Shown here: positions 3,956 through 27,055 of the stretch, piece after piece
How positions within the stretch are numbered: position 1 is the first letter of the stretch
Layout of the letters: every line of letters begins with the position of its first letter
DNA from: Mycobacterium sherrisii
GTDB lineage: Bacteria; Actinomycetota; Actinomycetes; Mycobacteriales; Mycobacteriaceae
NCBI RefSeq assembly: GCF_002102355.1
Contig: NZ_LQPT01000092.1
Location: 46,707 to 110,706, forward strand
Reading direction: 5' to 3'
Length of the DNA: 64,000 nt
Made by a program: the position numbers and the translations under genes
Notes under the pieces: generated by a model
The model's input: the letters and a program-made list of their open reading frames with translations, nothing else
Database searches by the model: none
Told to the model about the DNA's origin: nothing

Positions 3956-4693
3956 ATGTCTGCATCGGCTCCGACGGTCGAAGATCTGTGTGGGGTCTGG
4001 TCGCGCCGCTCGATCCGGTGGCCTAATGGGCGGTCGGACACCACCACGCGGGTGACCTGGATACAGGGTCGGCAATGGTTCGTCGACCTGCGCCGGCCCG
4101 CCGTGGATCCGGCGGTAAGCCCATCCCCCGGTGGCGAATGCGCGCCGCGGATGGACGCCTTTGCCGGCCGCCTTAGCCAAAATGACTCGGACAGAGCGCA
4201 ATTCATGTGGGACCACACCATCGACTGGTCGCCGGACCCACGCCCCGATGTTGGGCGACTGAGGTGGGAAGGCGACGCTCTGGTCGAGGAGGGCGTTCTC
4301 GAGCCATACCGCGAGGTGTGGATTCGGACCGAACGCCACGAGCCGGAAGACTCGGCGACCGCATTGCTCCACGACGACACCGGACGGGTTGCCCTGCTGC
4401 TGCGGTCGGCCGGCGTCTTCGGATACGCGGTGAGTCGCGGTCCTGACGGGCAAGCCGGCCGAGGTCCCACGGACTGTGAGGTTGCGATCGGGACGATCGA
4501 TGACAAGGGCTGGTGGGTAAGCAGTTCCACCAGAAGCGATGCGGCTGAGTTCCCGATCGTGGTCAACGTGGGCACATCGCAGGCGCAGATGAGCGCGGAC
4601 ACTCCCATGGTCCCCCCCTGCCTTCTGACCGGGCGTTGGCAGATCGGCCAGCTGACCGGCGACCCGGCCCTGCTTCAGACGAGTGAGGTGTAA
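3956..4693 (+). CDS. Uncharacterised protein, possibly lipocalin-like
   Basis: A 245-residue soluble protein with no signal peptide or membrane segment. I do not recognise the family. The N-terminal DLCGVWSRRSIRW carries a G-x-W near residue 13, followed by many short Trp- and Arg-rich strands (TRVTWIQGRQWFVDLRRP, EPYREVWIRTER, GRVALLLRSAG). This pattern recalls lipocalin/calycin-type beta barrels, which bind small hydrophobic or aromatic ligands; that is only a shape argument. It is the first gene of the island's plus-strand operon, starts 5 bp after the AGGGGTG arm of the palindrome, and stops 4 bp before the oxygenase gene. It probably works with that enzyme, perhaps in substrate binding or sensing. 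Confidence 0.7.
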   Translation: MSASAPTVEDLCGVWSRRSIRWPNGRSDTTTRVTWIQGRQWFVDLRRPAVDPAVSPSPGGECAPRMDAFAGRLSQNDSDRAQFMWDHTIDWSPDPRPDVGRLRWEGDALVEEGVLEPYREVWIRTERHEPEDSATALLHDDTGRVALLLRSAGVFGYAVSRGPDGQAGRGPTDCEVAIGTIDDKGWWVSSSTRSDAAEFPIVVNVGTSQAQMSADTPMVPPCLLTGRWQIGQLTGDPALLQTSEV

Positions 4694-4697
4694 CCCG

Positions 4698-5717
4698 ATG
4701 TCAGCTCCAACGTCGTTCGATGCGGTGCCCGAGATCGACATCTCCGGGTTGGCATCCGCGGATCCGTCGGTGAAAGCCGCAGTCGCGCAACAACTCGGCG
4801 AGGCCGCCCACCGGGTGGGATTCATGTACGTCAGCGGCAGCGGCGTACCGGATGAGGTCTTTGACCGCATGCACGGCGCGTCGCAACGTTTCTTCGACCA
4901 CTCCATGGACGCGAAAATGTCGGTCTACATCGGCAACTCGACCAACCACCGCGGCTACGTGCCGCAGGGCGGCGAGGTGTTCGCCGGCGGAACCGCCGAC
5001 AAGAAGGAAGCCTACGATTGCGCGCGTCACCGCCCCGACCGCGCCGGCAGCACCGCCCTGAGCGGCCCCAATCAGTGGCCCGCTCTTCCGGGTTTTGCCG
5101 AGGCCGTCACCGAATACTACGAGGCGGTGTTCGGGGCGGGCCGCGCGATCATGCGCGGGTTTGCGCTGTATTTGTCGGAACCCGAGGACTATTTCGATCG
5201 GTATTTGACCGATCCACCGAGCCAGCTGCGGTTGATCCATTATCCGGTCGACGAGACGGCCACCGACAGCCCGGGTATCGGCGCCCACACCGACTACGAG
5301 TGCATCACCCTGTTGAAGGCGACCCAGCCGGGACTCGAGGTGCTCAACGGCGCCGGGCAGTGGATCGACGTGCCCCCCCGGCCGGGATGTTTCGTGGTCA
5401 ACATCGGCGACATGCTAGAACTCTGGACTAACGGCCTGTTCGTCGCCACCACGCACCGGGTGCGCAAGGTGGTCAGCGAAAGATACTCCTACCCACTGTT
5501 TTTCAACGTCGACTACGACACGCTCGTCGAGCCGATGCCCAAACTCTGCGCCCCCGGCCAGCCGACCCGCGGCCGGCTCAAAGCCGGCGACCACCTGTTC
5601 GCGCAGACCGCGCAGAGTTTCGTCTACCTACGAGACCGCATCGAAGCGGGCGAGCTTGCCCTGCCGGCCGGCTCGCTGGCCTTGTCGTCATTCGGCCATC
5701 CCACTCCACAATCTTGA
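4698..5717 (+). CDS. 2-oxoglutarate/Fe(II) oxygenase, isopenicillin N synthase family
   Basis: A 339-residue non-haem iron oxygenase. The iron triad is visible: H197 and D199 in GAHTDYE, and H253 in ATTHRVRK. R262 and S264 of ERYSYPLFF form the RxS motif that binds 2-oxoglutarate. The N-terminal part has the family's EIDISGL and AHRVGFMYVSGSGVP segments. The start at 4698 is chosen because GAGGTG at 4684-4689 precedes it and the upstream gene stops at 4693. The substrate is unknown. Relatives include ethylene-forming enzyme and the homoarginine 6-hydroxylase class, which release guanidine from guanidino amino acids. That is of interest because a ureohydrolase and urease are encoded nearby, but the link is inference. 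Confidence 0.9.
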   Translation: MSAPTSFDAVPEIDISGLASADPSVKAAVAQQLGEAAHRVGFMYVSGSGVPDEVFDRMHGASQRFFDHSMDAKMSVYIGNSTNHRGYVPQGGEVFAGGTADKKEAYDCARHRPDRAGSTALSGPNQWPALPGFAEAVTEYYEAVFGAGRAIMRGFALYLSEPEDYFDRYLTDPPSQLRLIHYPVDETATDSPGIGAHTDYECITLLKATQPGLEVLNGAGQWIDVPPRPGCFVVNIGDMLELWTNGLFVATTHRVRKVVSERYSYPLFFNVDYDTLVEPMPKLCAPGQPTRGRLKAGDHLFAQTAQSFVYLRDRIEAGELALPAGSLALSSFGHPTPQS

Positions 5718-5739
5718 CGGCCAGTCGTGAAGGGAAAAG

Positions 5740-7299
5740 ATGATGGAACACAACGTCATTGAACAAGAACAAGAGGACGTCAGCGAGAGTCGCGCGCTGG
5801 CCTCCTTCGGCTACCAACAGCAGCTCCACCGGAAGATGGGAAGATTCGCGTCCTTTGCGGCGGGCTTCTCTTTCATCTCTGTGCTGACCGCCGTGTTCCA
5901 GCTGGCCGGGCTGGGCTTCAGTTTCGGCGGGCCCGCCTACGTGTGGACATGGCCGGTGGTGCTCGGCGGACAGCTGCTGGTCGCGCTGTGCTTCGCCGAA
6001 CTCGCGGCCCGATACCCGCTTTCGGGCGCGATCTATCAGTGGGCTAGCCGGCTGGCCAACCCCGTCTTCGGCTGGTTTGCCGGGTGGATCATGATCATCG
6101 GCCAAATCGTCGTCATGACCAGCGCCGCCGTCGCTCTGCAAGTGGTGTTGCCCGAGATCTGGTCCGGCTTCCAGCTGGTGGGCGGCGACCCGTCACCCAC
6201 ATCCAGCTCCGGTGCCCATAACGCAATCCTGTTGGCGGGCATATTGATGACGCTGACCACCATCGTCAACGTCATCGGCATCAAGCTGATGTACATCATC
6301 AACAACTGCGGCGTCGTATCGGAGATAACCGGTGCCGTTGCCATCATCATCCTGCTGCTCGTGCACAGCCGCCGCTCGGGCGAGGTGTTGGCGAGCACCG
6401 GCACCATCGGCCATGCCGGATACTTCGGCGCCTTGCTGTGCGCCTCGTTCACCGCGGCGTACGTGCTGGTGGGCTTCGACAGCGCGAGCGAGATGTCCGA
6501 AGAGACCCATAACGCGCGAAGAATTGCGCCGCGCACCACATTACGCGCGTTGTCGGCGGCCGGCGCCCTGGGCTTCGGAATCATCGTCGTGACCGTGCTG
6601 GCCGCGCCCAGTCTCAGCGACGGTCGGCTCGCCGACGAAGGACCCGCATACGTGGTGGCGACCGTATTGTCCGGAGCGACCGGCAAGATCCTGCTGATCA
6701 TGGTGGCGATTGCGATTTGTGTTGCGACATTGGCGATTCAGACGGCCGGCTCCCGCATGCTGTTCTCGATGGCCCGCGACCGCCGCACCCTGTTTCACGC
6801 CGCGCTGTCCCGCGTACCCCGTCGGACCGGGACCCCCGCGGCCGCGGCCATCGCGATCGGGCTCGGCGCCATCGCGGTGCTGCTGCTCAACCTCGGGCCG
6901 CAAGCGGCCTTCGTGGCAATGGAATCCACGTGCATCATCATCATTTACCTGGCCTACCTCATGGTCACCGGCGCGATGCTGGTCAACCGGCTGCGTGGCG
7001 AGGCCGTGTTCGGTGCCGGCGCCGTCGATGATCACGGGCAACGTGCCTTCAGCATGGGGCGTGCCGGGTTGTGGGTCAACGTCTTGGCGGTGGGATACGG
7101 GGCGGCGATGTTCATCAACCTGATCTGGCCGCGCCAAGCCATCTATGACCCCCAGGGCGGTCACTGGTACCTGCAATATTTCCCGTTGGTGTTCACCGCC
7201 GGCACCCTCGTCGTCGGAGCTGTGCTTTACAGCGCGGTCCACCGCGGGCCGCAGCAGGTGCATGGCACGCAGTGGGCGATGGTCCCCGCCGCCGAGTGA
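5740..7299 (+). CDS. APC-superfamily amino acid/amine permease
   Basis: A 519-residue integral membrane transporter with about 12 hydrophobic helices. The first helices carry FSFISVLTAVFQLAGLGFSFGGP and LCFAELAARYPLSGAIYQW, typical of the amino-acid/choline/GABA permease branch of the APC superfamily. A cytosolic loop has SEMSEETHNARRIAPRTT, the conserved acid-rich E-E-x-x-N motif before the next helix. It lies 22 bp after the oxygenase with AAGGGA before the ATG, so it is probably co-transcribed and may import the oxygenase substrate or a product. Residue-level substrate specificity cannot be read; an amine, polyamine or guanidino amino acid would fit the island. Confidence 0.9.
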   Translation: MMEHNVIEQEQEDVSESRALASFGYQQQLHRKMGRFASFAAGFSFISVLTAVFQLAGLGFSFGGPAYVWTWPVVLGGQLLVALCFAELAARYPLSGAIYQWASRLANPVFGWFAGWIMIIGQIVVMTSAAVALQVVLPEIWSGFQLVGGDPSPTSSSGAHNAILLAGILMTLTTIVNVIGIKLMYIINNCGVVSEITGAVAIIILLLVHSRRSGEVLASTGTIGHAGYFGALLCASFTAAYVLVGFDSASEMSEETHNARRIAPRTTLRALSAAGALGFGIIVVTVLAAPSLSDGRLADEGPAYVVATVLSGATGKILLIMVAIAICVATLAIQTAGSRMLFSMARDRRTLFHAALSRVPRRTGTPAAAAIAIGLGAIAVLLLNLGPQAAFVAMESTCIIIIYLAYLMVTGAMLVNRLRGEAVFGAGAVDDHGQRAFSMGRAGLWVNVLAVGYGAAMFINLIWPRQAIYDPQGGHWYLQYFPLVFTAGTLVVGAVLYSAVHRGPQQVHGTQWAMVPAAE

Positions 7300-7300
7300 C

Positions 7301-7333
7301 CCCGGGCCGCCCTGACGGCTCGGGCGGCCCGGG
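7301..7333 (+). terminator. GC-rich hairpin after permease gene
   Basis: CCCGGGCCGCCC (7301-7312) pairs perfectly with GGGCGGCCCGGG (7322-7333) around a 9-nt loop, starting 2 bp after the permease stop. There is no U tract, as is common for mycobacterial terminators. It probably ends the 3956-7299 operon. Confidence 0.6.
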
Positions 7334-7439
7334 TCGGCGCGGCCCCGACACCCGAAGCCTGGTGTAACCTCACGGCTGAATCGTTTCGGCAGTCCCTCCT
7401 GAGGCGGGGTGTGGTGGGTCTTCTCATCGCGGGCAGTGC

Positions 7440-8441
7440 ATGGCCCGGATAGCCGATCGCAGCAGGGTGACCATCAAGGACGTGGCGCGGGCCGCCAACG
7501 TCTCGGTCACAACGGTTTCCGATGCGCTCTCCGGAAATGGCCGGTTGACGGCCAAGACCCGCAGCCGGGTGCGCGCAGTGGCCGACAAGCTGGGTTACCG
7601 GCCCAGTGCCGCCGCGCGCAGCCTGGTCGGTGCACGCACCGGGCTGCTGGTCTTGTCGGTCGGCGCACCGGCAGCCGAGGCCGCCTCGTTGTGGAGTATC
7701 GACTTCTTCGTCAACCTGATGACCGCCGCGGCCATTCGGTCGTCGACGCACGGGTTTGCGCTGGCGCTGTCACCAGAATCGTTGTCGCCCAACCTTTCTT
7801 ACGATGGCGCGATCATCGTCGATCCCACCGCCGACGACGAGAGTCTGCTGGTGCGGGCGACCCGCGCCGGCGTCCCGGTGGTCACCGTGGGCCGGACGAT
7901 GGCAGACCATCCCTGGGTCGACAACGACTACCCCACCGTCATCCCCGCGGTCCTGGACCACCTTCGCTCGTCCGGAGCGCGCAGACCCGCACTGCTGGCC
8001 GGCGATCCGACAGCATCCTACGTACGTGACGCCGTTGAGCACTACACCCGGTGGTGCCGGGTGCATCGCTGTGCCAGCCGGATCTCCTACGTCGACGGCG
8101 GCAGCACCGAGGAGTCCGGACGTGCTGCGGCGAAGCGGCTGCTGTCGGGTCGCGGCCGATCCGACGCCGTGCTGGCCACGCTGGATCGGCTCGCGCTGGG
8201 CGTCACCGCGGCGGCCGGCGAACTCGGCTTGTCGATACCTGACGACGTTCTGGTGGCCGCGCTGGGCGACAGCACCATGATCCAGCACTTGCCGGTGCCG
8301 ATCACCGCTGTTGACCTGATGCCCGCCGAAATGGGTGCGGTGGCAATAGATTCGCTGGTGGCACGGATCAACGGCGGCGACGTGGCACTGCAAACCATTG
8401 TGCCGGGGCGTGTGCTGCCGCGGGCAAGCTCGCAGCGCTAG
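7440..8441 (+). CDS. LacI-family transcriptional regulator
   Basis: A 333-residue regulator. The N-terminal helix-turn-helix plus hinge helix reads VTIKDVARAANVSVTTVSDALSG (about residues 10-32) and LGYRPSAAARSLVGART, as in LacI/PurR proteins. The rest is a periplasmic-binding-protein-like effector domain (YDGAIIVDPTADDES, ILGG-type turns replaced by LLAGDPT, LPVPITAVDLMPAEMG). It lies 140 bp after the permease, behind the hairpin, and overlaps the 3' end of the convergent nitrilase gene by 4 bp. It probably senses an island substrate and controls one of the neighbouring operons. The dyads at 10810-10825 or in the palindromic element are candidate operators, but which regulator binds which site cannot be told. 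Confidence 0.92.
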   Translation: MARIADRSRVTIKDVARAANVSVTTVSDALSGNGRLTAKTRSRVRAVADKLGYRPSAAARSLVGARTGLLVLSVGAPAAEAASLWSIDFFVNLMTAAAIRSSTHGFALALSPESLSPNLSYDGAIIVDPTADDESLLVRATRAGVPVVTVGRTMADHPWVDNDYPTVIPAVLDHLRSSGARRPALLAGDPTASYVRDAVEHYTRWCRVHRCASRISYVDGGSTEESGRAAAKRLLSGRGRSDAVLATLDRLALGVTAAAGELGLSIPDDVLVAALGDSTMIQHLPVPITAVDLMPAEMGAVAIDSLVARINGGDVALQTIVPGRVLPRASSQR

Positions 8442-9250
8442 GACGGTCGGTTATGGGACCGGTACAGCGCCGGTCGGAGCTGGCGCAGGTAGTCGACCTC
8501 GGCGGGCGGGTCGCGGCGCAGGGTCACGTCGACGACGCGAACCCGCCGCCCACAGCCCAGATCGGCCACGACACGACCGTTCGGGTCGACGACTCGTGAC
8601 CCACCGGCGAAGTCGAAACCCGACTCGCTGCCAATGCGGTTCACATAGACCAGCGGAGTGCGATTGTCGAGGGCACGTGCGCGCGACGCCACCAAATGAT
8701 CCTCGTGGAACGCCGCCATGTTCGCCGCAATCACGATGAACACGTCGGGGCGTTGAAAGGCAAGGGTACGAGCCACTTCGGCGAACTCCATGTCGAAGCA
8801 GATCATCGGGGCCAGCCGTGCCGACGCCACGTCTACGCACGCCAGCTCCGCACCCGCATCGAAGGCGCCCGACTCGACACCGAAAAGGTGGGTCTTTCGA
8901 TAGTTTCCCGCGATCTCTCCCCCGGCGCCGACGACCAACATCGAGTTGTAGACCCGTCCGCCGGCGTCCCGCTCGAGATAACCTCCGACGAACACGGTTT
9001 CGGATTCCGCGCATGCTTGGCGGATTGCCGATACCGACGTCGAGTCGGTGCCCAGCGCCAACTCCGCGAGACGATCGGTTTGATACCCCGTGACGAACAA
9101 TTCGGGGAATACGGCAATGTCGCTGTCCGGATTCTTGCTGAGCAGGGCCCGAATCCGCCGAACATTTGCGTCGATGTCACGCGCGGCCGGGCTTTCCTGT
9201 ACCAGCAGGAAGCGCAGCCGGCCTGAGCCGTCGCGGCCGGTCCGCGTCAC
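8438..9250 (-). CDS. Nitrilase-superfamily carbon-nitrogen hydrolase
   Basis: A 270-residue cytosolic amidase of the nitrilase superfamily. The Glu-Lys-Cys triad is complete: Glu in AVFPELFVTGY (about residue 49), Lys in YRKTHLFG (about 119), Cys in APMICFDMEF (about 153). Relatives hydrolyse N-carbamoylputrescine, N-carbamoyl amino acids, omega-amides or aliphatic amides. Here it is the downstream gene of a two-gene minus-strand operon, its ATG overlapping the stop of the M24 hydrolase gene by 4 bp. In a guanidino/amine island an amide or carbamoyl intermediate is a reasonable substrate, with ammonia as product. That is inference from context. Confidence 0.9.
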   Translation of the reverse strand: MTRTGRDGSGRLRFLLVQESPAARDIDANVRRIRALLSKNPDSDIAVFPELFVTGYQTDRLAELALGTDSTSVSAIRQACAESETVFVGGYLERDAGGRVYNSMLVVGAGGEIAGNYRKTHLFGVESGAFDAGAELACVDVASARLAPMICFDMEFAEVARTLAFQRPDVFIVIAANMAAFHEDHLVASRARALDNRTPLVYVNRIGSESGFDFAGGSRVVDPNGRVVADLGCGRRVRVVDVTLRRDPPAEVDYLRQLRPALYRSHNRPS

Positions 9251-10413
9251 AGGCCGTCAAGACCGTAGCCTGCCGGCGAAAGCCTGCGCAGGCCGTCGCG
9301 CTCGACGACGTAGTTATCTTCGAGCTTGAGCAGGATGTAGCGTCCGTCGACTTCCAGGCCCGTCTCCGGCTCCAGGGCGATAACGCTGTTCTCGACCAGC
9401 ACTTGATCGCGATCGGTCAGCGATCCGCGGTACACCGTAGGCAATTCACAGGCGCGCAGCCCCACCCCGTGCCCGATCGCATACGGAGTGGTGGGCAAGC
9501 CCTCGGAGCGCAGGTACTTGTTCACCGCCTCGTCGATTTGCGACACGCGCACACCGGGTTTGGCGGACTCGGCGACGACTTCGTGCGCCTTGAGTAGCTT
9601 GGCGTAAGCCGTTTTGATCTCGGCGCGCGTGTCGCCGCCCACGAAGCCGGTCCGCGCGATGTCCGAGGCGTAGCCGCACCGGCCGTACAGGCCGATGTCG
9701 AAGAAGTACGGATCGCCTTCGGCGAGCACGGTGCCCTCGGCGAACCACCCGCCGTCGCCACGGCCATGGTTACACAACGAATGACTCAAAAACTCCGGCC
9801 CGCTGGCTTGCAGGGTCGCCATGATCGCCGCCAGCACGTCGTGGTCGGTCATCCCGGCCTCGGCAGCCTTGAATCCGGCTTCTGCGCCCAGCGAATTGAC
9901 GATGCTGGCATCCTCGAGCAGCCGGATCTCCTCCGGGGTTTTGCGGATGCGGATGTCGTAGAGCTCGCGACCGATCGGGACGAAGTCCGCCGCGGGAAGA
10001 GCGCCTTTGAGGCGCTGCAGCACGGCCGGATCGATCAATTCGATCCCCACCTTTGTGGCTCCCGTCAACGCGCCGGTCAAACCCGCAGTCCACGTCTCGG
10101 GATGCCCGACCATCGGCGACCACGAGGGCATCGGATGGATCTTGCTGATCCAGGGCAGGTCTGCGACGGGCGCGGCGTGCGTCTCGTCGATCCACGGTGC
10201 AAAGATCTCGGTCCGGCCGTCGCGATCGACGACGGCGGCGAACCAGTCGAACGCCTCGGCGATGATCTGCGTGCGGTAATCCGTCGCGTAGCGGATGTGA
10301 TCGAACCCCGTCAGCAGCAGGTGTGATAGCCCGTGTCGGCGCATCAGATCGGCGACCGCTTCGCGGCGATCGCTGCGCAACCGATCGATGTCGACGGTAG
10401 ACCAGTCGTACAT
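9247..10413 (-). CDS. M24-family metallohydrolase (aminopeptidase P/creatinase fold)
   Basis: A 388-residue pita-bread-fold protein. The N-terminal creatinase-like domain (YATDYRTQIIAEAFDWFAA) is followed by the catalytic domain. All five metal ligands of the peptidase branch appear: two Asp in FFDIGLYGRCGYASDIARTG, His in YAIGHGVGL, and Glu in IALEPETG and LLKLEDNYVV. True creatinase works without metals and lacks this set, so a metal-dependent Xaa-Pro-type peptidase or related hydrolase is more likely. The start at 10413 is supported by GAGAGGA upstream; the 18-codon-longer frame has no such site. It is first in an operon with the nitrilase and diverges from the creatininase-type gene across a 469-bp gap. 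Confidence 0.88.
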   Translation of the reverse strand: MYDWSTVDIDRLRSDRREAVADLMRRHGLSHLLLTGFDHIRYATDYRTQIIAEAFDWFAAVVDRDGRTEIFAPWIDETHAAPVADLPWISKIHPMPSWSPMVGHPETWTAGLTGALTGATKVGIELIDPAVLQRLKGALPAADFVPIGRELYDIRIRKTPEEIRLLEDASIVNSLGAEAGFKAAEAGMTDHDVLAAIMATLQASGPEFLSHSLCNHGRGDGGWFAEGTVLAEGDPYFFDIGLYGRCGYASDIARTGFVGGDTRAEIKTAYAKLLKAHEVVAESAKPGVRVSQIDEAVNKYLRSEGLPTTPYAIGHGVGLRACELPTVYRGSLTDRDQVLVENSVIALEPETGLEVDGRYILLKLEDNYVVERDGLRRLSPAGYGLDGL

Positions 10414-10882
10414 GGTGATGTCCTCTCGGTGCGACCGCGGATCGCGGGAACAATTGCGATTGAACAAGACTCGGCACAGATAGCGAGCTCGACGCCATAC
10501 TTGCAGAAACGTTCCGGCATGTCTACCGCGGCACCGCTGGTGGCGGTGCCCGTGCGGGCAAATCTGCGAAATGTATTGGTATTCCCCCGGTCACGCCGCA
10601 CTCGGCATCCGCTGGGGGTCTTCGGTTACATCGCGGACACTTCTCGGAAATGGCGTCGACACGAAAGCCGCCTAGCGTCCACCTCAGATCCCCGACGGGG
10701 GTCCGCGCCTAGGGTTCCGCTCGCGAGAGGCCTGGACCGAGGGGGGCACCCGCACACGCTCGTGCGGTACACCAGGGGACAAAAGCCCGGAAGGATCACG
10801 GAGCCTGCGCTCCGAATTATCGGAGGGCACCAGTGCCTCTGGTAACACCCGGTAGCTGGTACCCCGGCCGGTCTGCGGTCTG
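10414..10882. promoter_or_regulatory. Divergent promoter region with candidate operators
   Basis: A 469-bp gap lies between two divergent operons. It contains a 16-bp inverted repeat CTCCGA-ATTA-TCGGAG at 10810-10825, about 58 bp before the creatininase-type start, and a GC-rich hairpin with 8-bp arms at 10530-10550. No coding region is supported; the open frames here lack ribosome sites and recognisable domains. The dyad is a reasonable operator for the island's LacI or TetR regulators, but nothing in the sequence says which. Confidence 0.45.
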
Positions 10883-11677
10883 ATGAGATGGGGCGAATGT
10901 ACGTCGACGCGGATCGGACGGCTCGAGCTGGACGGCCGCGTCGGTCTCGTGCCGGTGGGCGCGACCGAACAGCACGGGCCGCACCTGCCGACCGACACCG
11001 ACACCCGGATCGCGCAGGCGATATGCGATGCTGCCGCCGCCAGCTGTGCTGCCACCATCGTGTTGCCGCCGGTAAGCATCGGCTGCAGCCTGGGTCACGG
11101 CACGGCGTTCCCCGGCACGCTGTCGCTGTTTCCGGAGGAGCTGGCCAGGTTACTGATCCGGATCGCCGAGTGGTCGGCGCTGAGCGGTCTGCGGAAGCTG
11201 ATCTTCGTCAACGCGCACATGGGAAACGTTGCGGCGCTTGGGATGGCAACCGACCGGCTGCGCTTTGTGCGGCCCGACCTGAGATCGACGTGGGTCGACT
11301 GGTGGGATGCCACCCCGGCGATCACCGCCGAGGTGATGGCCGATGGTGCGGACATCCACGCCAATCGTGCGGAGACCTCGCTGGCGTTGCACTTGTTCCC
11401 GGAGCTGGTCGACCGGCCGGCCATGCTCGATGCGGATGATCCAGACCGCACCGGCGCGTTGATCTTTCGTTACACCGCCGAGGTGCTGTCGGGCAACGGT
11501 GTTACCGGTGAGCCATCGCGAGCCACGGCGTCGCTGGGCAACAGCCTGTTCGACGCTGTCGTCGAGGTGGTCGTCCACAAGGTTCTGGCCGGAGTCTCCG
11601 AAGAGCCGCCGTTGCCACGGACACTGCATCCGCCGCGCGCACTTCGATTCGAGGAGGCAACCGATGGACACCGTTAA
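10883..11677 (+). CDS. Creatininase-family metal-dependent amidohydrolase
   Basis: A 264-residue protein of the creatininase family, which opens or trims amide bonds using two metal ions. Visible motifs are PVGATEQHGPHLPTDTDTRI (E-x-H and Asp ligands, about residues 24-43), GCSLGHGTAFPGT, FVNAHMGN (His ligand) and NRAETS (Glu). True creatininase, as I recall it, has NGHYEN here, and the larger formamide-hydrolase/MftE group has NGHGGN; this protein has NAHMGN. It is therefore a distinct member and creatinine is not a safe substrate call. It overlaps the glutamine synthetase-like gene by 14 bp, so the two are coupled and may act in sequence on an amide or lactam. Confidence 0.88.
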   Translation: MRWGECTSTRIGRLELDGRVGLVPVGATEQHGPHLPTDTDTRIAQAICDAAAASCAATIVLPPVSIGCSLGHGTAFPGTLSLFPEELARLLIRIAEWSALSGLRKLIFVNAHMGNVAALGMATDRLRFVRPDLRSTWVDWWDATPAITAEVMADGADIHANRAETSLALHLFPELVDRPAMLDADDPDRTGALIFRYTAEVLSGNGVTGEPSRATASLGNSLFDAVVEVVVHKVLAGVSEEPPLPRTLHPPRALRFEEATDGHR

Positions 11678-13046: not shown

Positions 13047-13059
13047 GACGGGGTGGACC

Positions 13060-13680
13060 GTGGCACACTCTTCCGGATTGTCGACGCGCTCCCAACATCG
13101 CCGCCGGGCGGTGTTGCGGTCCACCGTGGCCGTGCTGCGGCGACGTGGATTCGACGCGGTCACCAGCCGGGCCGTCGCCCAGGAAGGGGGCCTGCCGGAA
13201 CAGACCGTGCGGGCCTTCTACGCATCGCGTGACGACCTGCTGGCCGCCGGCTTGAAATTCATGCTGAACGGGTGGATCGAACAAGCCAACGATTTCGTCA
13301 AGCGGCTGCCCTGCCAGCTCGGCCTCAACGAAACGGCCCGTCTGATCACCGAGGTCGCGACGGTGCACCCCGCCGAGGACGGATCGTTGACCCGCGCAAC
13401 GATCTCGGGCGTGTACGAGCGCTACCTACAGGCGGGGAAGCACTCCGAGCTGACCTCGTTGATCGGTGCTTACAACGAGATCCTGGCCGGCCTGGTTGCA
13501 CAGGTGCTGGCCCGTAACGGCCGCTCCGTCGGTCCGCAGGTGGCCCGTGCCGTCCTCGCCGTTGCCGACGGCACCGTTCTCTACGAACTCGCGGCCGGCG
13601 AGAATCCCGTGCCCCGGGCCATTGAGATGCTCGAGTTCGCCATACCGCGGCTGTGTGCGCCGGCGTCCTCGGCACCGTGA
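13060..13680 (+). CDS. TetR-like transcriptional regulator
   Basis: A 206-residue protein from the GTG at 13060, 13 bp after the glutamine synthetase-like stop; an upstream in-frame ATG at 13021 would overlap that gene by 26 bp. The N-terminal helix-turn-helix reads DAVTSRAVAQEGGLPEQTVRAFYASRDDLLAAG. This is TetR-like, with a typical all-helical ligand domain after it. It is probably co-transcribed with the creatininase-type and GlnT-like genes. It is the first of two consecutive TetR genes and could regulate its own operon. Confidence 0.8.
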   Translation: MAHSSGLSTRSQHRRRAVLRSTVAVLRRRGFDAVTSRAVAQEGGLPEQTVRAFYASRDDLLAAGLKFMLNGWIEQANDFVKRLPCQLGLNETARLITEVATVHPAEDGSLTRATISGVYERYLQAGKHSELTSLIGAYNEILAGLVAQVLARNGRSVGPQVARAVLAVADGTVLYELAAGENPVPRAIEMLEFAIPRLCAPASSAP

Positions 13681-17724: not shown

Positions 17725-18056
17725 CCCCACAAGTAGCCCTATGCGGCACCGGTCATGACGCTGCTCAACGACATGACGCTCACCCGAATCATCGCGTCGC
17801 ACTAGACATTGCCAGGAAAGTCACAGCTGTCTGACAACGGCGCAATCTTGCCATTCATGCTCGGGTGGGTAGCTTGTATAGCGGCGTAGCCATATGGGCC
17901 GCCCGGACGAGCTCGCCGTACCCGGACAGCGACAAGACGGCGAATACGGGGTGTGTGGCGCGCCGGTGCCCAGAGCGGGTGTTTGAGTTCACTGCTGATT
18001 TGCCGGTCGCCGAGTCATCCTCTGCCGTATTTGGTACTCGACGAGAGGAAGCAGTG
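17725..18056. other. Intergenic region before ureohydrolase gene
   Basis: These 332 bp hold no supported gene. A short duplication of CACAAGTAGCCC follows the PPE stop. The open frame continuing upstream of the ureohydrolase ATG (from 17865) lacks a ribosome site and resembles no family. I looked for a guanidine riboswitch fold and saw none I could support. No copy of the GAAAC/CTATC element is present here. Confidence 0.5.
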
Positions 18057-19220: not shown

Positions 19221-19758
19221 CGGCGCCGGCGGTCGCGTGATCAGCCCTCGGCTAACCGCCCCATCCGTGCCCACATGCGATGAACATGCCTGCGGTGCAA
19301 TGGATCTGAGGGAGGCGCCCCTCATCGCGTAACCCCGTGACCGCGGACATCCAGGCCGCTAGACATGGCCGCCCTGAGGTTGCTTGGCGGTCATGTAGCG
19401 AATGATTATTCCGAGGTGGTGCGGCCCTTCTCTGGGCGCCTGCCGGAAGTACGCGCCACCCGTTCCGATGGCTGACACGCCACCGCTGGAACATCCGAAC
19501 CCCCATGATAGGCCTTGTCCTACAGCATGATTCAACCGACAGCGTTGCGCGATGCGGGCGCCGCCGGGGCCGGGCCCTGACGGGTCTCGACGGCGTCGAC
19601 AGACGCCGGGGGCACGGCCTCTCAGCAAATTGCCAGTGATTAACCATAGTTATTACAGGCGCACTGGTGGATATTGCTACTCATGCGGCGGTCACAGTCC
19701 AATTCGATCCGGCCGCAGGCGATTTGGCGGCTGGGGGGCGTGTGACGGGGGTTCGGTG
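19221..19758. promoter_or_regulatory. Promoter region of PPE pair 2 with partial regulatory element
   Basis: These 538 bp hold no supported gene. At 19523-19535 the 13-mer CAGCATGATTCAA exactly repeats the core of regulatory copy A (3896-3908), but the GAAAC boxes and CTATC dyad are absent. An AT-rich stretch at 19638-19660 lies about 100 bp before the PPE start. It probably carries the pair 2 promoter; shared regulation with the element copies is uncertain. Confidence 0.4.
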
Positions 19759-21120
19759 ATGGATTTTGCGGCGCTGCCGCCGGAGGTCAACTCCGGCCGC
19801 ATGTACGCCGGCGCGGGAGTGGGGACGCTGCTGGCCGCAACGTCGGCGTGGGACGCACTGGCGGCGGAGTTGAGTGTGGCGGCGGGGTCGTATCGGTCGG
19901 TGGTGGCGGAGTTGACGGGTGGGCCGTGGGTGGGTCCGTCGTCGACGGTGATGGCGGCTGCGGTGGCTCCGTTTGTGTCGTGGCTGAGTGGTGTTGCGGT
20001 GCAGGCGCAGCAGACGGCGGGTCAGCTTGCGGCGGCGGTGGCGGCCTATGAGGCGGCGTTTGCGGCGACGGTGCCGCCGGCGCAGATTGAGGTGAATCGG
20101 GCGTTGTTGGCGTCGTTGGTGGCCACGAATGTGTTGGGGCAGAACACGCCGGCGATTGCGGCGACCGAGGCGCAGTACGGCGAGATGTGGGCGCAAGACG
20201 CCGCGGCGATGTATGGCTATGCGGGGGCGTCGGCGGCGGCGACCAGGGTGACTGCCTTCAGCGCGCCACCACAGACCACCGACCCATCGGGCACCACCAA
20301 CCAAACCAGCGCGGTCGGGCAAGCCGCCGGATCCGCGGTTGGGCCCGGCGCACGCTCGGCGCTCGCGAACGTCCCCAACCTGCTGCAGAATCTTTCGGCG
20401 GGCTCGATCGCCACCCCGGCGGACCTCGACCCCGGCCTGGGCGGCCTGCTCGACGCCCCGAGTGGCGGCCCCACCGGACTCAACCTGTTCACCCAGAATG
20501 TCGGGAACTGGGCCCTGGTCCTCAGTGGGCCGTTGTTCACCGCATCCGGGATTACGCCGCTGCTGGGCGGACTGTACGGGCTGGCGTTGCCCACAGCCGC
20601 GGCCGTGGCCTCCGACGTTTCGCCGGCGGACGCCGGACTAGGCAACCTGGTGAGTTCCGCCGGCCCGGCCGCCGGTTCGGTATCGGCGAGCGTGGGCAAG
20701 GCGGCCACGGTTGGCGAGTTGTCGGTCCCCCAAACATGGGGCTCCGCGCCCTCGGTTCGGTTGGCCGCCAGCGCATCTGCGCTTCCGGTGGCCGGGCCCG
20801 CCGGCGTGCCGGCGGGTGCGGCGGTGCCGGGCGGATTTTTCGGCGTTCCCCCGATCGGCAGCCTGGTCAACGCGCCCCGGGGCGAGCAGACCCGGGCGCG
20901 CAGCGGCTCGGACCAAAAAGTCATTCCGGCAATGCCCGGCGAGCCCGGGCCCGCCGAGCAGATTGCCGCGCCCACGCGGCCGCAACCGGCCCGCCGCCAC
21001 GTGGCCAGCGAGCTCAGCGAAGCCGAGCGCGACGAGCTGGAGAAGTTGCGCAAGGGCATCGCCGAAGTCGCATCGGAGCGCGATGCGGCAGCCCGCCTGA
21101 TCAAGGAGGCGATGCTGTGA
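19759..21120 (+). CDS. PPE-family protein, SVP subfamily, type A of pair 2
   Basis: A 453-residue paralogue of the type A gene at 14990. It has the PPE domain ([35 protein letters not shown]), a hydrophobic [21 protein letters not shown] segment nearly the same as in pair 1, GELSVPQTW, and the acidic-basic tail [19 protein letters not shown]. The ATG at 19759 is used because PPE homology starts there; an in-frame GTG lies one codon upstream and only a weak G-rich ribosome site is present. C-terminally it groups with the pair 1 type A gene, but N-terminally with its own neighbour, showing conversion within each pair. Confidence 0.93.
19858..20312 (+). repeat. 455-bp near-exact direct repeat, copy 1 (PPE domain, pair 2)
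   Basis: This matches 21228-21682 at an offset of 1370 bp with one mismatch (GAG versus GCG in the TACGGC-GAG/GCG-ATG stretch). The first 61 bp of the two genes are also identical, separated by a divergent patch of about 38 bp. This is a mosaic pattern typical of gene conversion. Confidence 0.92.
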
Positions 21121-22496
21121 CCGCGCCGATGGATTTTGCGGCGCTGCCGCCGGAGGTCAACTCCGGCCGCATGTACGCCGGCGCGGGAGCGGGCTCGTGG
21201 GCGTCGGCCGGCGCCGCCTGGACGAAGCTGGCGGCGGAGTTGAGTGTGGCGGCGGGGTCGTATCGGTCGGTGGTGGCGGAGTTGACGGGTGGGCCGTGGG
21301 TGGGTCCGTCGTCGACGGTGATGGCGGCTGCGGTGGCTCCGTTTGTGTCGTGGCTGAGTGGTGTTGCGGTGCAGGCGCAGCAGACGGCGGGTCAGCTTGC
21401 GGCGGCGGTGGCGGCCTATGAGGCGGCGTTTGCGGCGACGGTGCCGCCGGCGCAGATTGAGGTGAATCGGGCGTTGTTGGCGTCGTTGGTGGCCACGAAT
21501 GTGTTGGGGCAGAACACGCCGGCGATTGCGGCGACCGAGGCGCAGTACGGCGCGATGTGGGCGCAAGACGCCGCGGCGATGTATGGCTATGCGGGGGCGT
21601 CGGCGGCGGCGACCAGGGTGACTGCCTTCAGCGCGCCACCACAGACCACCGACCCATCGGGCACCACCAACCAAACCAGCGCCGTTGTCAGGCAAGCAGT
21701 CTCGGGGTCCAACCAAAGCGTCCAGTCGGCGCTCTCCCAGGTGCCCAATCTGCTCCGACAAGCCGGGGCGGGACCGCAGTCCGGGACACCCGCGACGCCC
21801 TCCGGGGGCTCGCTGCTGGACCTGTTCAACAACTTCAGCGCCAACACCATCGGATACCAGATCCTGTCCGAGGGGTTGAACTTCGACGCCTCCGGTACCT
21901 TGCTGACCCTGGCGCCGCCGGTCGCCGCGGCCTGGAACCCGTTGGTCAGTTCGCTGTCGGCCCCGGCGACCGCCGCCTCCTCGGTGACGGGATCCGGTTC
22001 GGCCCTGGTCAATTCCTCCGCTGCCGCGGGCTCCGGCGGGGTGTCCGCCGACGTGGGGCGAGCCGCCACGGTCGGCCAGTTGTCGGTGCCGCAATCGTGG
22101 GCCAACTCCCCCGCCGTCCGGCTGGCCGCTACCCAGTCGTCTGGTGCCAATCTGAACGCGCTCCCGCCGGCCGGGCCGATCGGGCCGGGTTTCTACGGTG
22201 GCGTGCCGCCGATGGGGCCGGTGGCCAGTGTGGTCAATGCGCCGCGAAGCGACCAGGGCCGGCTCCGAACGAGCGCACGCCACAAGGTAATTCCCGCAGC
22301 AGGTGTGGAAGCTGATCGGGAACGGGATCCCGCGCGGCACTGGGTCGAGCCCGCGCCGTCGGCCGAGGGCGACGGCGCGGTCAGCGAGCGCGACGAGCTG
22401 ATCGCACTGCGCAAGGCGATGGCCGACGTCACCCGACAGCGCGACGTCCTCAAACGTACGGCCGCGACGCTGATCAAGGAGGCAACGCAGAAGTAG
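21117..22496 (+). CDS. PPE-family protein, SVP subfamily, type B of pair 2
   Basis: A 459-residue PPE-SVP protein. The start is GTG at 21117, overlapping the type A stop by 4 bp with AAGGAGG a few bases upstream, exactly mirroring pair 1. The long frame continuing upstream on this strand is an artefact of the preceding gene. Features are the PPE domain, [43 protein letters not shown] and the tail [22 protein letters not shown]. It is the type B paralogue of 16339. The next gene, a permease, starts 57 bp later, so PPE pair and permease are probably one transcript: outer and inner membrane uptake steps together. Confidence 0.92.
21228..21682 (+). repeat. 455-bp near-exact direct repeat, copy 2 (PPE domain, pair 2)
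   Basis: This is the partner of 19858-20312, with one mismatch. It shows the same shift in codon style between the repeated N-terminal half and the unique C-terminal half as pair 1. Confidence 0.92.
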
Positions 22497-22553
22497 CGAC
22501 AAACGCACTGTGCGCGTCTCGTTTTGGCCATCGACGATTGGAACTCAGAGCAG

Positions 22554-24050
22554 ATGTTCTCCACCAAACCGGAAACCCGTTGCGCGGCAGACATTGTGAC
22601 CCCCGACGACGAGGACCAGGCGCAACTCGCGGCCCTGGGATTCCAGTCCGACTTCAAACGGGACATGAGTCCCTGGGCGAACTTCTCGTTGGGGTTCACC
22701 TATCTGTCGCCGGTGGTCGGGATCTACACGGTGTTCGCCTTCGCGCTGGCGACCGCGGGCCCGCCGATGATCTGGAGCCTGCTGATCGCCGGGGCCGGAC
22801 AGCTGCTGGTCGCGCTGGTGTTCAGTGAAGTGGTGGCGCAATTCCCGGTGGCCGGCGGAGTCTACCCGTGGGCCCGCCGCCTGTGGGGACGCAAGTGGGC
22901 GTGGATGACCGGCTGGGTGTACATGTTCACGCTGCTGGCGCTGTTGGCCGACGCGGCCTACGGCGCCGGTCCGTACGTGGCAGATGTGTTCGGCTTCAAG
23001 CCATCTGCGCACGCCACCGTGCTGTGTGCACTCGTCATGCTGGCGTTGGCCACGACGATCAACATGACCGGAACCAAGATACTGGGGTACTTCGCCATTT
23101 TCGGGTTCAGCGCGGAGTTGATCGGCGCCGTCGTCGTCGGGGTCTGGCTGCTGTGTACCCAGCGCCACCACAACCTCGGCGTACTTTTCCACAGCTTCGG
23201 CGCGCAAGGCCACCACAGCTACACCTACGCCTTCCTGGCCGCCAGTTTGATCGCGCTCTACCAATTCTTCGGTTTCGAAGCCTGCGGCGACGTCGCCGAG
23301 GAAGTCCGCAACCCCGGCGTTCAAATCCCAAAGGCCATGCGCCGCACCATCTACGTCGGCGGCTCGGCGGCCACCTTCGTCTGCTTGAGCCTGATCCTGT
23401 CGGTCACCGATTTCGGCGCGGTGATCAGCGGCAAGGACGCCGACCCGATCGACACCATCCTGAAGACGGCGTTCGGCGGCCTGGGCGCCAAGGTCGTCCT
23501 CTGCATCGTGCTGATCTCGTTCGTGTCGTGCGCACTGAGCCTGCAGGCCGCCGCCAGTCGGCTGATCTACTCCTACGGCCGCGACGACATGATCATCGGT
23601 TCGCGACTGTTGGCGCGGTTCGATCACAAGCGGCACGTGCCGCCGTACTCGCTGCTGATCGCTGTGATCATTCCGGCGGTGTTGATCGTCGGTTCGCTGA
23701 TCTCCAGCGATGCGCTGACCAAGCTCGTCAGCTTCGGCTCGGTGGGCGTCTACATCGCCTTCCAGATGGTCGTGCTGGCCGCCCTGCGCGCCCGGGTCAA
23801 CGGCTGGGTACCCAGCGGCAAGTACCGTCTGGGCCGGTGGGGAATGCCGGTCAACATCGGTGCGCTGGTCTACGGCGTCGCGGCGATAGTCAACCTGGCC
23901 TGGCCGCGCGAGCCCTACCAGCCCTGGTATGACGACTACATCATTCTGCTGATGTCGGTCACCATCATCGGGCTCGGCATCGGGTACCTCGCCCTGACCC
24001 GGGCGCACACCAAAAGCGATGCGCCGCACGCCGATGCTATCCCGAAATAG
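22554..24050 (+). CDS. APC-superfamily amine/amino acid permease
   Basis: A 498-residue transporter with about 12 helices. It has the APC features FSLGFTYLSPVVGIYTVFAFALATAGP, LVFSEVVAQFPVAGGVYPWARRLWG and, in a loop, FEACGDVAEEVRNPGVQIPKAMRR, like eukaryotic-type GABA/choline and bacterial amine permeases. I take the ATG at 22554; a TTG-initiated frame begins 10 codons earlier without a ribosome site. It follows PPE pair 2 by 57 bp and converges on ureF 18 bp away, marking the right edge of the island. A different subgroup from the permease at 5740, it suggests the island imports more than one compound. Confidence 0.9.
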   Translation: MFSTKPETRCAADIVTPDDEDQAQLAALGFQSDFKRDMSPWANFSLGFTYLSPVVGIYTVFAFALATAGPPMIWSLLIAGAGQLLVALVFSEVVAQFPVAGGVYPWARRLWGRKWAWMTGWVYMFTLLALLADAAYGAGPYVADVFGFKPSAHATVLCALVMLALATTINMTGTKILGYFAIFGFSAELIGAVVVGVWLLCTQRHHNLGVLFHSFGAQGHHSYTYAFLAASLIALYQFFGFEACGDVAEEVRNPGVQIPKAMRRTIYVGGSAATFVCLSLILSVTDFGAVISGKDADPIDTILKTAFGGLGAKVVLCIVLISFVSCALSLQAAASRLIYSYGRDDMIIGSRLLARFDHKRHVPPYSLLIAVIIPAVLIVGSLISSDALTKLVSFGSVGVYIAFQMVVLAALRARVNGWVPSGKYRLGRWGMPVNIGALVYGVAAIVNLAWPREPYQPWYDDYIILLMSVTIIGLGIGYLALTRAHTKSDAPHADAIPK

Positions 24051-24068: not shown

Positions 24069-24704
24069 TCACGATACGAACAGCGGCTGCTCGCGCCGCG
24101 CATGGCGTTCGGCCAAGGTGTCGAGCAAGGGGTCGGACAGATCGGCCAGTCCGGCGGCCGCCTGCGCCGCGGTGCTCTCGCACAGCTGGGCCAGCCGAAA
24201 CGTCAACGCCGACACGTCGGCCGGATCGAGGGCCAGCAGCCGCTGCGCCGCGGTCGCCGAAGTCGTCATCGTGGTGTAGACGATCGCGAGGGCGTTCTGT
24301 TGCGGATCCAGGCCGCTGACTGCGCCGACCCGTCCGGATGCGACGGCAAGATGCGGCCGGGCACCCAGGTCGGTCCAGCAGGCGGTCGGCCACACGCGCC
24401 GCGCCAGTCGGATCAGCCCGCGGCCCTGGCTGCGCGATGCCTGCCGGGCCGCCAGTGCCGGTGTGCGGGCATCGGTTTCGTGCTCGGCCCGCTCGATGCC
24501 CAGCTCGCCGCGCTGGACCGCCACCGCAATCGAGGCGGTCACCAAACCATGGCTGCGGATCCTGCGGCGTAAGAAGGCCTCGAGGGTCTCGACGTTGACC
24601 ACCAGGGCGCCGGCTATGGCCTCCTCGACGCCGCCGGAGTGCGCGTGCGAGCCGGCCGGTAATCGAGAATCGGCCAGGGTCAGCAGCGTCGCCAGCACGG
24701 ACAT
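24069..24704 (-). CDS. ureF: Urease accessory protein UreF
   Basis: A 211-residue all-helical UreF that bridges UreD and UreG and gates nickel delivery. It has the N-terminal LADSRLPAGSHAHSGGVEEA stretch, with the conserved D-S-R/x-x-P-x-G-x-x-x-H-S-G-G pattern. The ATG at 24704 lies 7 bp after the ureC stop. The length equals that of M. tuberculosis UreF. It is the last gene of the ureABCF transcript; where ureG would normally follow, the convergent permease gene of the island begins. Confidence 0.94.
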   Translation of the reverse strand: MSVLATLLTLADSRLPAGSHAHSGGVEEAIAGALVVNVETLEAFLRRRIRSHGLVTASIAVAVQRGELGIERAEHETDARTPALAARQASRSQGRGLIRLARRVWPTACWTDLGARPHLAVASGRVGAVSGLDPQQNALAIVYTTMTTSATAAQRLLALDPADVSALTFRLAQLCESTAAQAAAGLADLSDPLLDTLAERHARREQPLFVS

Positions 24705-24711
24705 GAAGATC

Positions 24712-26445
24712 TCAGAACAGGAAATAGCGTTGTGCCATCGGCAATTCGGCCGGCGGCTGTTCCTGCCAGACTTCACCGTCGATGCGCACGGTGAAGGTGT
24801 CCGGGTCGACCTCGATGACGGGCAACGCATCGTTGAGCGGCAAGGCCGCCTTGCCGGTCGCACTGGTGTCGCCTACCGGGACCAGTCGCCGATCGACCGC
24901 CAGTTTCTCGGCCAGGCCGGCCTCGATCGCTTGCGGGGCAACGAAATGGACCGAAGTCGCGGCCGCGGCCGCCGGCGCCGCCCCGAACATCGGCCGTGGC
25001 AGCACCGGCTGCGGGGTCGGAATGGACGCATTCGCGTCACCCATCGCCGCCCAGGCGATCATGCCGCCCTTGATCACTGCATGCGGGCGAACTCCGAAGA
25101 AGCGCGGCTCCCAAAGCACCAGGTCCGCGAGCTTGCCCACCTCCACCGATCCGATTTCGGCGTCGAGGCCGTGTGAAATAGCCGGGCAGATGGTGTATTT
25201 CGCAACGTAGCGCCGCACCCGCAGGTTATCTGCGGCTCGAGGACCAGAGCGGTCGCCGGGTAGCGCGCCGCGCCGGCGTTTCATCACGTGCGCGGTCTGC
25301 CAGGTCCGCAGCACCACCTCCCCGATGCGGCCCATCGCCTGGGAGTCGCTGCCGATCATCGAGATCGCGCCGAGGTCGTGCAGCAGATCCTCGGCCGCCA
25401 TGGTGGACGGCCGAATGCGGCTTTCCGCGAACGCCAAATCCTCGGGCACCTGCGGGTTGAGGTGATGGCAGACCATCAACATGTCCAGATGCTCATCGAG
25501 GGTATTGACCGAATGCGGGCGGGTCGGGTTAGTGGAGCTGGGCAGCACGTTCGGTTGCCCGGCCACCCGAATGATGTCGGGGGCGTGGCCGCCGCCGGCG
25601 CCTTCGGTGTGATACGTGTGGATGGACCGGCCGGCGATCGCGGCCAGGGTGTCCTCGACGAAGCCCGTCTCGTTGAGGGTGTCGGTATGCAACGCCACCT
25701 GGACCCCCGCGGCGGCCGCCACGGTCAGGCAGGCGTCGATGGCCGCGGGCGTCGACCCCCAATCTTCGTGCAGCTTGAAACCCGAAGCGCCGCCGCGTAA
25801 TTGCTCCCACAGTCCCTCGGCGCTGATGGTGTTGCCCTTACCCAGTAGTGCGACGTTGACCGGCCAGCCGTCGAGCGCCTCGAGCATCCGGGCCAAATGC
25901 CACGAACCCGGGGTCACCGTGGTGGCCTTGCTGCCCTCGGCGGGACCGGTGCCGCCGCCCACGATCGTGGTGATTCCGGATCCGAGCGCCTCGGACATCA
26001 GCTGTGGGCAGATCAGGTGGACGTGACAGTCCACGGCGCCCGCGGTCACGATTCGCCCGTTGCCGGCGATGATCTCGGTGGACGGCCCCACCACCAGCCC
26101 CGGATGCACGCCGGTCATGATGTCGGGATTGCCGGCCTTCCCGATGGCGACGATGCGGCCATCGCGAATACCGATGTCGCCCTTAATGATTCCCCAATGG
26201 TCGATTATCACCGCCCCGGTGATCACGGTGTCGGGCGCGCCGTCGGCCCGAGTGGCGCGGCCTTGGCCCATCGACTCGCGCAGTACCTTGCCGCCGCCGA
26301 ACACCGCCTCGTCGCCGGCCAGTCCCGGTCCCCCGCTGCGGTCTTCGGTGATCTCTACCAACAGGTCGGTGTCGGCCAGCCTGATCCGGTCACCGGTGGT
26401 GGGACCGTACAGCTGGGCGTATTGCTCCCGCGATAGGTGTGCCAT
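24712..26445 (-). CDS. ureC: Urease alpha subunit UreC
   Basis: A 577-residue catalytic subunit with a dinuclear nickel centre; it hydrolyses urea to ammonia and carbamate. Visible active-site elements are the HVH ligands in [10 protein letters not shown], the Lys that is carbamylated in [19 protein letters not shown] of the mobile flap, and Asp in [11 protein letters not shown]. The ATG at 26445 is used (577 residues, as in M. tuberculosis) and overlaps the ureB TGA by one base. An upstream TTG would add one residue. All catalytic residues that can be checked are intact, so the split locus should still make urease. Confidence 0.97.
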
Positions 26446-26756
26446 CAAATATCCAGTCGTCCAGGGGGATTCAGGGTCAGACCGGGCACCTCGCGGTCCC
26501 CACGCAGCGGAACCAGATCGACGGTCTTGACGACGCCGGGCTCGAAACGCACCGCGGTCGCCGCCGGGATGTCGAGCCGGTACCCCCGGGCCGCGCCACG
26601 ATCGAAGGACAACGCCGAATTGGCCTGCGGCAGGTGGACATGGCTACCCACCTGGACCGGACGGTCCCCGGTGTTGACGATCCGCATCTCGATCCGGGGG
26701 ACGTCCGCGTTGATCTCGATATCGCCGCTGCCGTAAAGGATTTCGCCGGGAATCAT
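26445..26756 (-). CDS. ureB: Urease beta subunit UreB
   Basis: A 103-residue small structural subunit of urease. It has the typical [19 protein letters not shown] start and the conserved [21 protein letters not shown] core with [18 protein letters not shown]. Its ATG overlaps the ureA stop by 4 bp and its stop overlaps ureC, so ureA, ureB and ureC are translationally coupled. Confidence 0.96.
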
Positions 26757-27055
26757 GAGATCGGGCGGTGCACGGTGACCAGCTTGGTGCCGTCCGGAAA
26801 GGTCGCTTCCACCTGGACATCGTCGAGCATCTCCGGCACGCCCTCCATCACGTCGTCGCGACCGAGAACCTCACAACCGCTGGACATCAGCTCGGCGACC
26901 GTGCGGCCATCGCGCGCTCCCTCGAGGATGTGGTCGGTGATGATCGCGATGGCTTCGGGATGGTTGAGGCGCAGACCGCGGGCGCGGCGTTTGCGGGCCA
27001 ATTCGGCGGCGTAGGAAACCAGCAGCAAGTCCTGCTCGTGCGGCGTCAGGCGCAT
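26753..27055 (-). CDS. ureA: Urease gamma subunit UreA
   Basis: A 100-residue gamma subunit. It begins [35 protein letters not shown] and ends with the family's [21 protein letters not shown] use the ATG at 27055, which gives the standard 100 residues; six extra codons would be added from an upstream in-frame ATG. It is first in the ureABCF operon. The promoter should lie in the 49 bp before it or upstream, with the thioesterase gene reading in the same direction 50 bp earlier. Confidence 0.96.

Follow-up and report, generated by a model that had tools for sequence, protein, structure and literature searches.

A Guanidine-III riboswitch, a guanidinase and a PPE-PPE-permease unit in the urease locus of Mycobacterium sherrisii and relatives: a probable island for guanidine-nitrogen assimilation

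The urease locus of Mycobacterium sherrisii was examined in a stretch of 64,000 nucleotides (hereafter the window; C92:46707-110706 of a 5.56 Mb genome in 128 contigs), where it holds a cassette composed of a Guanidine-III riboswitch, a gene for a Ni-dependent guanidine hydrolase of the arginase family (gdmH), two PPE genes and a permease of the APC superfamily (perm2). The same cassette was recovered in at least 28 distinct loci, window included, and its gene content, residues, riboswitch match, conservation and linkage to urease are direct observations. With a probability of roughly 0.78, we read it as a guanidine-nitrogen assimilation island within the urease locus of a mycobacterial group. 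A preliminary description of the window, made from the sequence, had listed a 2-oxoglutarate (2OG) oxygenase, a ureohydrolase, urease, two amine permeases and a GlnT-like ligase, and every one of these was located by profile searches (Table 1); the riboswitch, the four PPE genes flanking the ureohydrolase and the split urease operon are additions to that list.

The ureohydrolase GdmH gives the one PF00491 match in the whole genome. Its nearest relatives in PDB are 9fek (503.7 bits) and 7esr/7oi1 (489.5 bits), which are the guanidinases of Nitrospira inopinata and Synechocystis, respectively (PMC11410670; here and below, PMC numbers stand for the excerpts of these papers available to us), followed by proclavaminate amidinohydrolase at 159.7 bits. 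Against 9fek, 221 of 362 aligned columns are identical (61%). All 10 diagnostic residues are present, including six metal ligands (H178, D202, H204, D206, D294 and D296 in window numbering), the Thr and Trp of guanidine specificity (T101 and W308), and H217 and E338. Their counterparts in N. inopinata are T105/W313 and H222/E344, and the roles in metal and guanidine binding are those given for that enzyme (PMC11410670); the chain numbering of 9fek runs 2 above that of the paper, and this shift was applied in the comparison. Among the matches listed, the closest named relatives of GdmH come from Mycobacterium ahvazicum, M. interjectum and others (97-98%). The named hosts of the cassette are presumably slow growers. 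Because a guanidine riboswitch lies upstream and the guanidinase residues are kept, free guanidine is a more likely substrate of GdmH than any guanidino amino acid, and its hydrolysis would yield urea for urease. The earlier proposal of a ureohydrolase that feeds urea to urease within one locus, accompanied by an amine-type permease, is thus supported, and in a stronger and more specific form.

The riboswitch aptamer matches the full Guanidine-III model (1-67) with no non-standard pairs marked (E 1.4e-8 in an Rfam scan of the window with 4227 families), and ends 110 nt before the start of gdmH. Class III guanidine riboswitches are mainly actinobacterial and known to turn ON with ligand (PMC12186494), which we take as the default here. 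Downstream of the aptamer, a conserved leader element is able to pair with the 3′ strand of the second aptamer helix, with six of six pairs in 23 of 26 leaders and five in the remaining three, as scored by a pattern built for these same leaders. Part of this element is also able to pair with the ribosome-binding site (98.8% of cells). In the alignment of 16 leaders the element-aptamer pairs are formed in 94.7% of cells vs 31-58% for slid versions, and just one pair changes on both sides, a count equalled in 256 of 500 shuffles. Minimum free energy folds of four leaders disagree among themselves, and a promoter and terminator scan returned nothing useful. The shared pairing suggests a two-state leader.

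Conservation of the cassette was traced by tblastn mapping of the window genes onto the best 80 gdmH loci, 80 riboswitch-centred regions (79 places, L125 being merely a piece next to L149) and 20 further regions. Loci were de-duplicated by contig, and no two of the 28 are over 97.5% identical. A riboswitch sequence pattern, which recovers 78 of the 79 places found by Rfam, is present in 27 of the 28 cassette loci, the exception (L226) being cut inside gdmH. A urease gene stands beside the cassette in 26; the other two, L046 and L133, end too early and show a homologue of what we take to be M. tuberculosis Rv1847, the flanking neighbour in arrangement b below. The permease gene is found in 24 of 24 loci that reach that far (aligned as two pieces in L182), and two PPE genes in 22 of 25 that reach them, one of the 22 being cut by the contig end. 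Of 297 genus genomes, 166 have a riboswitch over the cut-off and 70 a gdmH match at E 1e-100; this gdmH is 93-100% identical in 25 of the 70, the window's included, and G059 has a 98% identical part at a contig end.

Four arrangements relative to urease were observed: between ureG and ureF (a, 11 loci), before ureA and in the same direction (b, 10 loci), between ureA and the Rv1847 homologue but opposed to urease in direction (c, 6 loci), and between ndh and ureD (d, 1 locus). In the window, the genome's single over-cut-off urease alpha gene belongs to an operon that is split, where ureG and ureD adjoin ndh 20 kb away from ureF. Since an unbroken ndh-ureD-G-F-C-B-A run is found in arrangement c (examples of such a run are L041, L043, L047, L048 and L094), positions 3956-24050 of the window lie between ureG and ureF. 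On a tree of host genes (ureC, ureB, ureG, ndh and blaI; 26 rows, L046 and L133 left out for want of columns), the arrangements need three changes, the minimum for four states, compared with a shuffled mean of 12.6; a tree of gdmH and perm2 (28 rows) needs five. The host-gene tree therefore has the cassette moving or flipping at least three times while remaining at urease, and local rearrangement, instead of repeated independent insertion, may account for these changes. In arrangement b, a gap of 4-63 nt parts the perm2 stop from the start of ureA (MRLT) in eight of eight loci measured (the other two of 10 are cut short), and such gaps suggest that perm2 and ureABCFGD share one transcript. As a separate observation, L183 of genome G194 (about 10001-10960) has a Guanidine-III riboswitch and a gdmH that appears broken by eye, directly before ureABCFGD.

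The PPE genes and the permease seem to form a second unit. A conserved cis element of 36 bases upstream of PPE1, a probable promoter or operator, is present in 27 of 28 cassette loci, the exception being L046, which ends just after gdmH. Allowing up to two mismatches, a search of 198 genus genomes found it once each in 12, which are precisely those searched genomes that carry the cassette, and a reversed control gave 0. A looser form (three mismatches) precedes three of four stand-alone PPE-PPE-permease units, and none was seen, looser form included, in the oxygenase module loci L204-L207 described below. The spacing between gdmH and PPE1 is 541 nt in the window and roughly 440-780 nt elsewhere. 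Given this upstream element of its own, PPE-PPE-permease is probably a transcription unit by itself. We take the 11-bp CAG period to be no closer than a resemblance to OmpR-type sites. As a GlnR site the element was rejected, as by eye it reads AC-n10-AC against the published mycobacterial motif AC-n9-AC (PMC3662644).

The PPE pair itself is ordered. From a set of 28 loci that covers the three settings named below, 30 ordered pairs were collected, and the second members of 29 form a single clade (Shimodaira-Hasegawa-like approximate likelihood ratio test, SH-aLRT, 98) in a quick tree with some long branches; the count of 29 leaves out the upstream pair of L038 and the single PPE of L230, both of which are distant. 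The PPE1-PPE2 order is constant in three settings: the cassette, stand-alone TetR/PPE-PPE-permease loci (L227-L230) and the oxygenase module (L205-L207). No adjacent PE partner was found, and the 13 PE matches of the genome include none on the window's contig. Ahead of its riboswitch the window holds the ordered pair once more, in a copy that shares 69% (A to C) and 65% (B to D) identity with the cassette pair; its first member groups with the window's cassette PPE1 and its second with the stand-alone units, not with the L205-L207 pair. The adjacency of PPE genes and permease was also considered as a statistical oddity of one genome (41 PPE genes and 10 APC permeases, perm2 alone near PPE), which is unconvincing by itself, and conservation was used instead.

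From these observations we infer substrate, transport direction and regulation as follows. Cytoplasmic guanidine would bind the Guanidine-III riboswitch and raise gdmH expression, as expected from the riboswitch class. GdmH, as a Ni enzyme, would convert guanidine to urea and ammonia, judging from the 61% identity and the diagnostic residues, and the neighbouring urease would turn urea into ammonia and CO2. The second unit, under its own upstream element, would probably carry guanidinium or an amine of related small size inwards, PPE1-PPE2 serving the outer membrane and the APC permease the inner one. A fuller version, which we put forward tentatively and at slightly under even odds, is that guanidinium or a close amine enters through an outer-membrane pore made by the conserved, PE-less PPE pair, which would form with the APC permease, guanidinase and urease one two-membrane system from feed to ammonia; in the M. 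interjectum group this system would have merged into the urease operon.

Several observations weigh against an assimilation island. The PPE unit may not be under riboswitch control, because it has its own element and starts 541 nt after gdmH; the riboswitch is placed to act for certain on gdmH only. The leader pairings are compatible with either direction of the switch and, by themselves, would even allow a switch that ligand turns OFF. The window's cassette is oriented opposite to ureFCBA and separates ureF from ureG. Integrity is also imperfect, with a split PPE in L036, a shortened one in L037 and a single one in L042 (three of 25), besides the two-piece permease of L182. A group of gdmH genes at 83-87% identity is without the window's PPE, permease and urease genes in the fetched flanks (16 of 16). 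Finally, the PPE-PPE-permease trio occurs in four genomes without gdmH, riboswitch pattern or urease (L227-L230), and perm2 homologues elsewhere stand near glutamine-synthetase-like genes in nine of 12 cases examined (L232-L243), so the cargo may be another amine.

The strongest competing explanation is that the trio carries some other amine and sits by gdmH and urease only because this cargo, too, ends as ammonia or urea. The stand-alone TetR/PPE-PPE-perm2 loci and the separate upstream element speak for it. However, the close form of the element is confined to cassette genomes, and no locus that extends to the permease lacks it (24 of 24); we consider this explanation unlikely, if still a serious competitor. 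Detoxification, where the switch and GdmH guard the cell from guanidine and the urease linkage is incidental, is clearly less probable. The same switch class does serve a small exporter family (SMR) in genus loci lacking gdmH: an SMR-like frame directly follows the riboswitch in 34 of 34 such loci by pattern (L135, L138, L140, L151, L175, L181 and L183 left out), and six of six tested are SMR by Pfam. Yet assimilation is the better fit for a permease whose family is of import type, for a linkage to urease that persists across the four arrangements and for a permease abutting ureA.

The preliminary description had proposed a longer chain, in which the oxygenase frees guanidine from guanidino amino acids, the ureohydrolase and urease follow, and the GlnT-like ligase captures ammonia or amine; methylguanidine was weighed here as a further possible oxygenase substrate. 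The oxygenase family is right in outline; its best PDB match bears the name of an ethylene/succinate-forming enzyme (207.7 bits), and guanidine-releasing 2OG enzymes exist (PMC12508155). Perm1 homologues (45-52%) are found near gdmH in other actinobacteria, creatininase-like and glutamine-synthetase-like genes stand next to gdmH in Verrucomicrobia, and in the window the oxygenase is linked to the guanidine genes at a distance of 12 kb. However, the oxygenase belongs to a module (HRI1-like, 2OG oxygenase, perm1, LacI, CN-hydrolase, M24, creatininase-like, type III glutamine-synthetase-like, TetR, TetR) whose close oxygenase orthologues (83-98%) lie in G289, G194, G051 and G007 within the same cluster, either whole or up to where the contig or the fetched region ends (L204-L207). 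None of gdmH, riboswitch or urease was found in these regions, and a distance of 600 kb separates module and urease in G194. All four genomes are without intact gdmH and fall outside the 70 gdmH genomes, therefore the module persists without a guanidinase. The riboswitch pattern is present in none of 20 oxygenase loci of the genus, where, as in the window, the HRI1-like gene is adjacent to the oxygenase (20 of 20); 16 of these 20 are more distant loci, and in all 16 it is upstream. The module is also absent from the ureG side in all nine other arrangement-a loci showing that side, where the riboswitch directly follows ureG. Neither the oxygenase as guanidine source nor the ligase, a part of this separable module, is therefore supported as a link of the chain, and the longer chain is very improbable.

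Some module genes may nevertheless have a loose link with guanidine in other organisms. In L098 and L099 (Verrucomicrobia; about 10001-13400), gdmH is followed by creatininase-like and glutamine-synthetase-like genes with 39-42% identity to the window's, and no guanidine riboswitch was detected in either at the Rfam threshold. In L091, a Pseudonocardiales metagenome-assembled genome, Guanidine-I (9644-9765, minus strand) and Guanidine-III (9888-9954, plus strand) riboswitches stand in divergent neighbouring positions, with a perm1-like gene on one side and gdmH on the other. Degradation of creatinine or creatine by the M24 and creatininase-like genes was considered and rejected (TIGR04448 at 110.3 against a cut-off of 235); for the M24 protein, PDB gives proline dipeptidases as best matches (66.5 bits) and lists no creatinase at E 1e-6.

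A role of the ureohydrolase as agmatinase, or as hydrolase of some other guanidino acid, is hardly credible, since NCBIfam agmatinase models do match GdmH but only below their cut-offs (201.6 bits vs 302 and 163 vs 174.3), guanidinases are closer than other solved relatives by more than 300 bits, and the specificity Thr and Trp as well as the upstream guanidine riboswitch point to guanidine.

Table 1. Features of the window discussed in the text (positions are those of the window).
Feature	Position	Strand	Basis or remark
ureD	2242..2883	-	PF01774, 43.3 bits vs cut-off 27
ureG	2883..3554 (start approximate; open reading frame to 3806)	-	CobW/HypB/UreG domain and gene order in relatives
Oxygenase module	3956..14461		Same cluster away from urease/riboswitch in four other genomes; judged outside the guanidine unit
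2OG-Fe(II) oxygenase	4698-5717		PF14226 and PF03171
perm1, APC permease	5740-7299		PF13520
Type III glutamine-synthetase-like ligase	within 11499-13046		433 bits, below cut-off 469.6
Extra PPE pair before riboswitch	14990..17724	+	PF00823
Guanidine-III riboswitch aptamer	17884..17946	+	RF01763, 54.8 bits vs gathering 36
Leader, aptamer to start codon	17947..18056	+	Alignments of 26 and 16 leaders; includes GACGAGAGGA ribosome-binding site
gdmH, guanidinase	18057..19220	+	PF00491, E 1.4e-75
Conserved cis element	19623..19658	+	CAG at 11-bp period; about 100 bp upstream of PPE1
PPE1 (PPE and PPE-SVP)	19759..21120	+	PF00823 215.7 bits, PF12484
PPE2 (PPE and PPE-SVP)	21129..22496	+	PF00823 208.2 bits, PF12484
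perm2, APC-superfamily permease	22524..24050	+	PF13520, 151 bits
ureF	24069..24700 (start approximate, within 24069-24863)	-	PF01730, 63.3 bits
ureC, urease alpha	24712..26448	-	NF009685, 1151 bits
ureB, urease beta	26445..26756	-	TIGR00192, over cut-off
ureA, urease gamma	26753..27055 (open reading frame to 27073)	-	TIGR00193, over cut-off

Two further RNA matches were seen in the window. Rfam 5_ureB_sRNA (25992-26283, plus strand, 61.5 bits) lies antisense to ureC; it was set aside, for it probably mirrors conserved urease coding sequence and not a proven antisense RNA. Two tandem glycine riboswitch aptamers (43619-43838, minus strand, 57.2 and 41 bits) stand at the start of the 40748-43816 open reading frame, whose real start probably lies further in.

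If the guanidine island is read correctly, guanidine joins the nitrogen sources on which environmental mycobacteria may feed, and the linkage of a mycobacterial urease to a urea-producing enzyme gains a nutritional reason. We know of no cargo for most PPE proteins. Here a PPE pair has beside it a riboswitch whose class names the ligand, an enzyme whose chemistry is known and a carrier of the inner membrane, and a specific PPE cargo thereby becomes testable. The full set is still to be identified (PMC9731449). According to a review, riboswitch control extends to most urea carboxylase genes but not to urease genes (PMC12186494), and arrangement b is a candidate exception.

The preliminary description had regarded a complete chain within a urease locus as undescribed in mycobacteria. 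This stands for the mycobacterial arrangement with PPE and urease, since no such guanidinase/PPE/urease locus was found in the literature searched, most subscription papers being beyond its reach (PMC9241763 was discarded, its guanidine passage referring to a lysis buffer); it does not stand for a riboswitch-controlled guanidinase with an APC permease, which is known from comammox Nitrospira (PMC11410670). There, a guanidine riboswitch, an APC permease and a GdmH-type guanidinase also occur together and urease is in the genome. However, the riboswitch is of class I instead of class III, the permease precedes the guanidinase instead of following it, and urease (in the genomes of Fig. 1) lies at sites without guanidine-riboswitch regulation instead of next to the cassette; PPE genes are not described for the comammox locus in the excerpt of that paper. 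The Synechocystis GdmH operon likewise combines an arginase-family Ni guanidinase with urea production for urease, but has a class I switch, an ABC importer and Ni-delivery proteins (PMC12186494), none of which is in the cassette; the M. sherrisii genome has two HypA matches elsewhere, and ureG is close to the cassette. The Vreelandella MgdH/MgdL pair (PMC12508155) resembles the window's oxygenase by description, as a guanidine-related setting places a 2OG oxygenase next to a small protein of uncharacterised type; there the oxygenase sits inside a riboswitch operon with guanidine carboxylase, whereas the window's module can be parted from the guanidine genes and lacks its own riboswitch. As in the PE15/PPE20 nutrient channels (PMC9731449), PPE-domain proteins are proposed here as carriers of a specific small solute, but two PPEs stand in fixed order with no PE on the contig and are linked to guanidinase, APC permease and urease. 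Thus, the enzyme and the switch are of known families, and it is their joining with urease and a PPE pair that is new.

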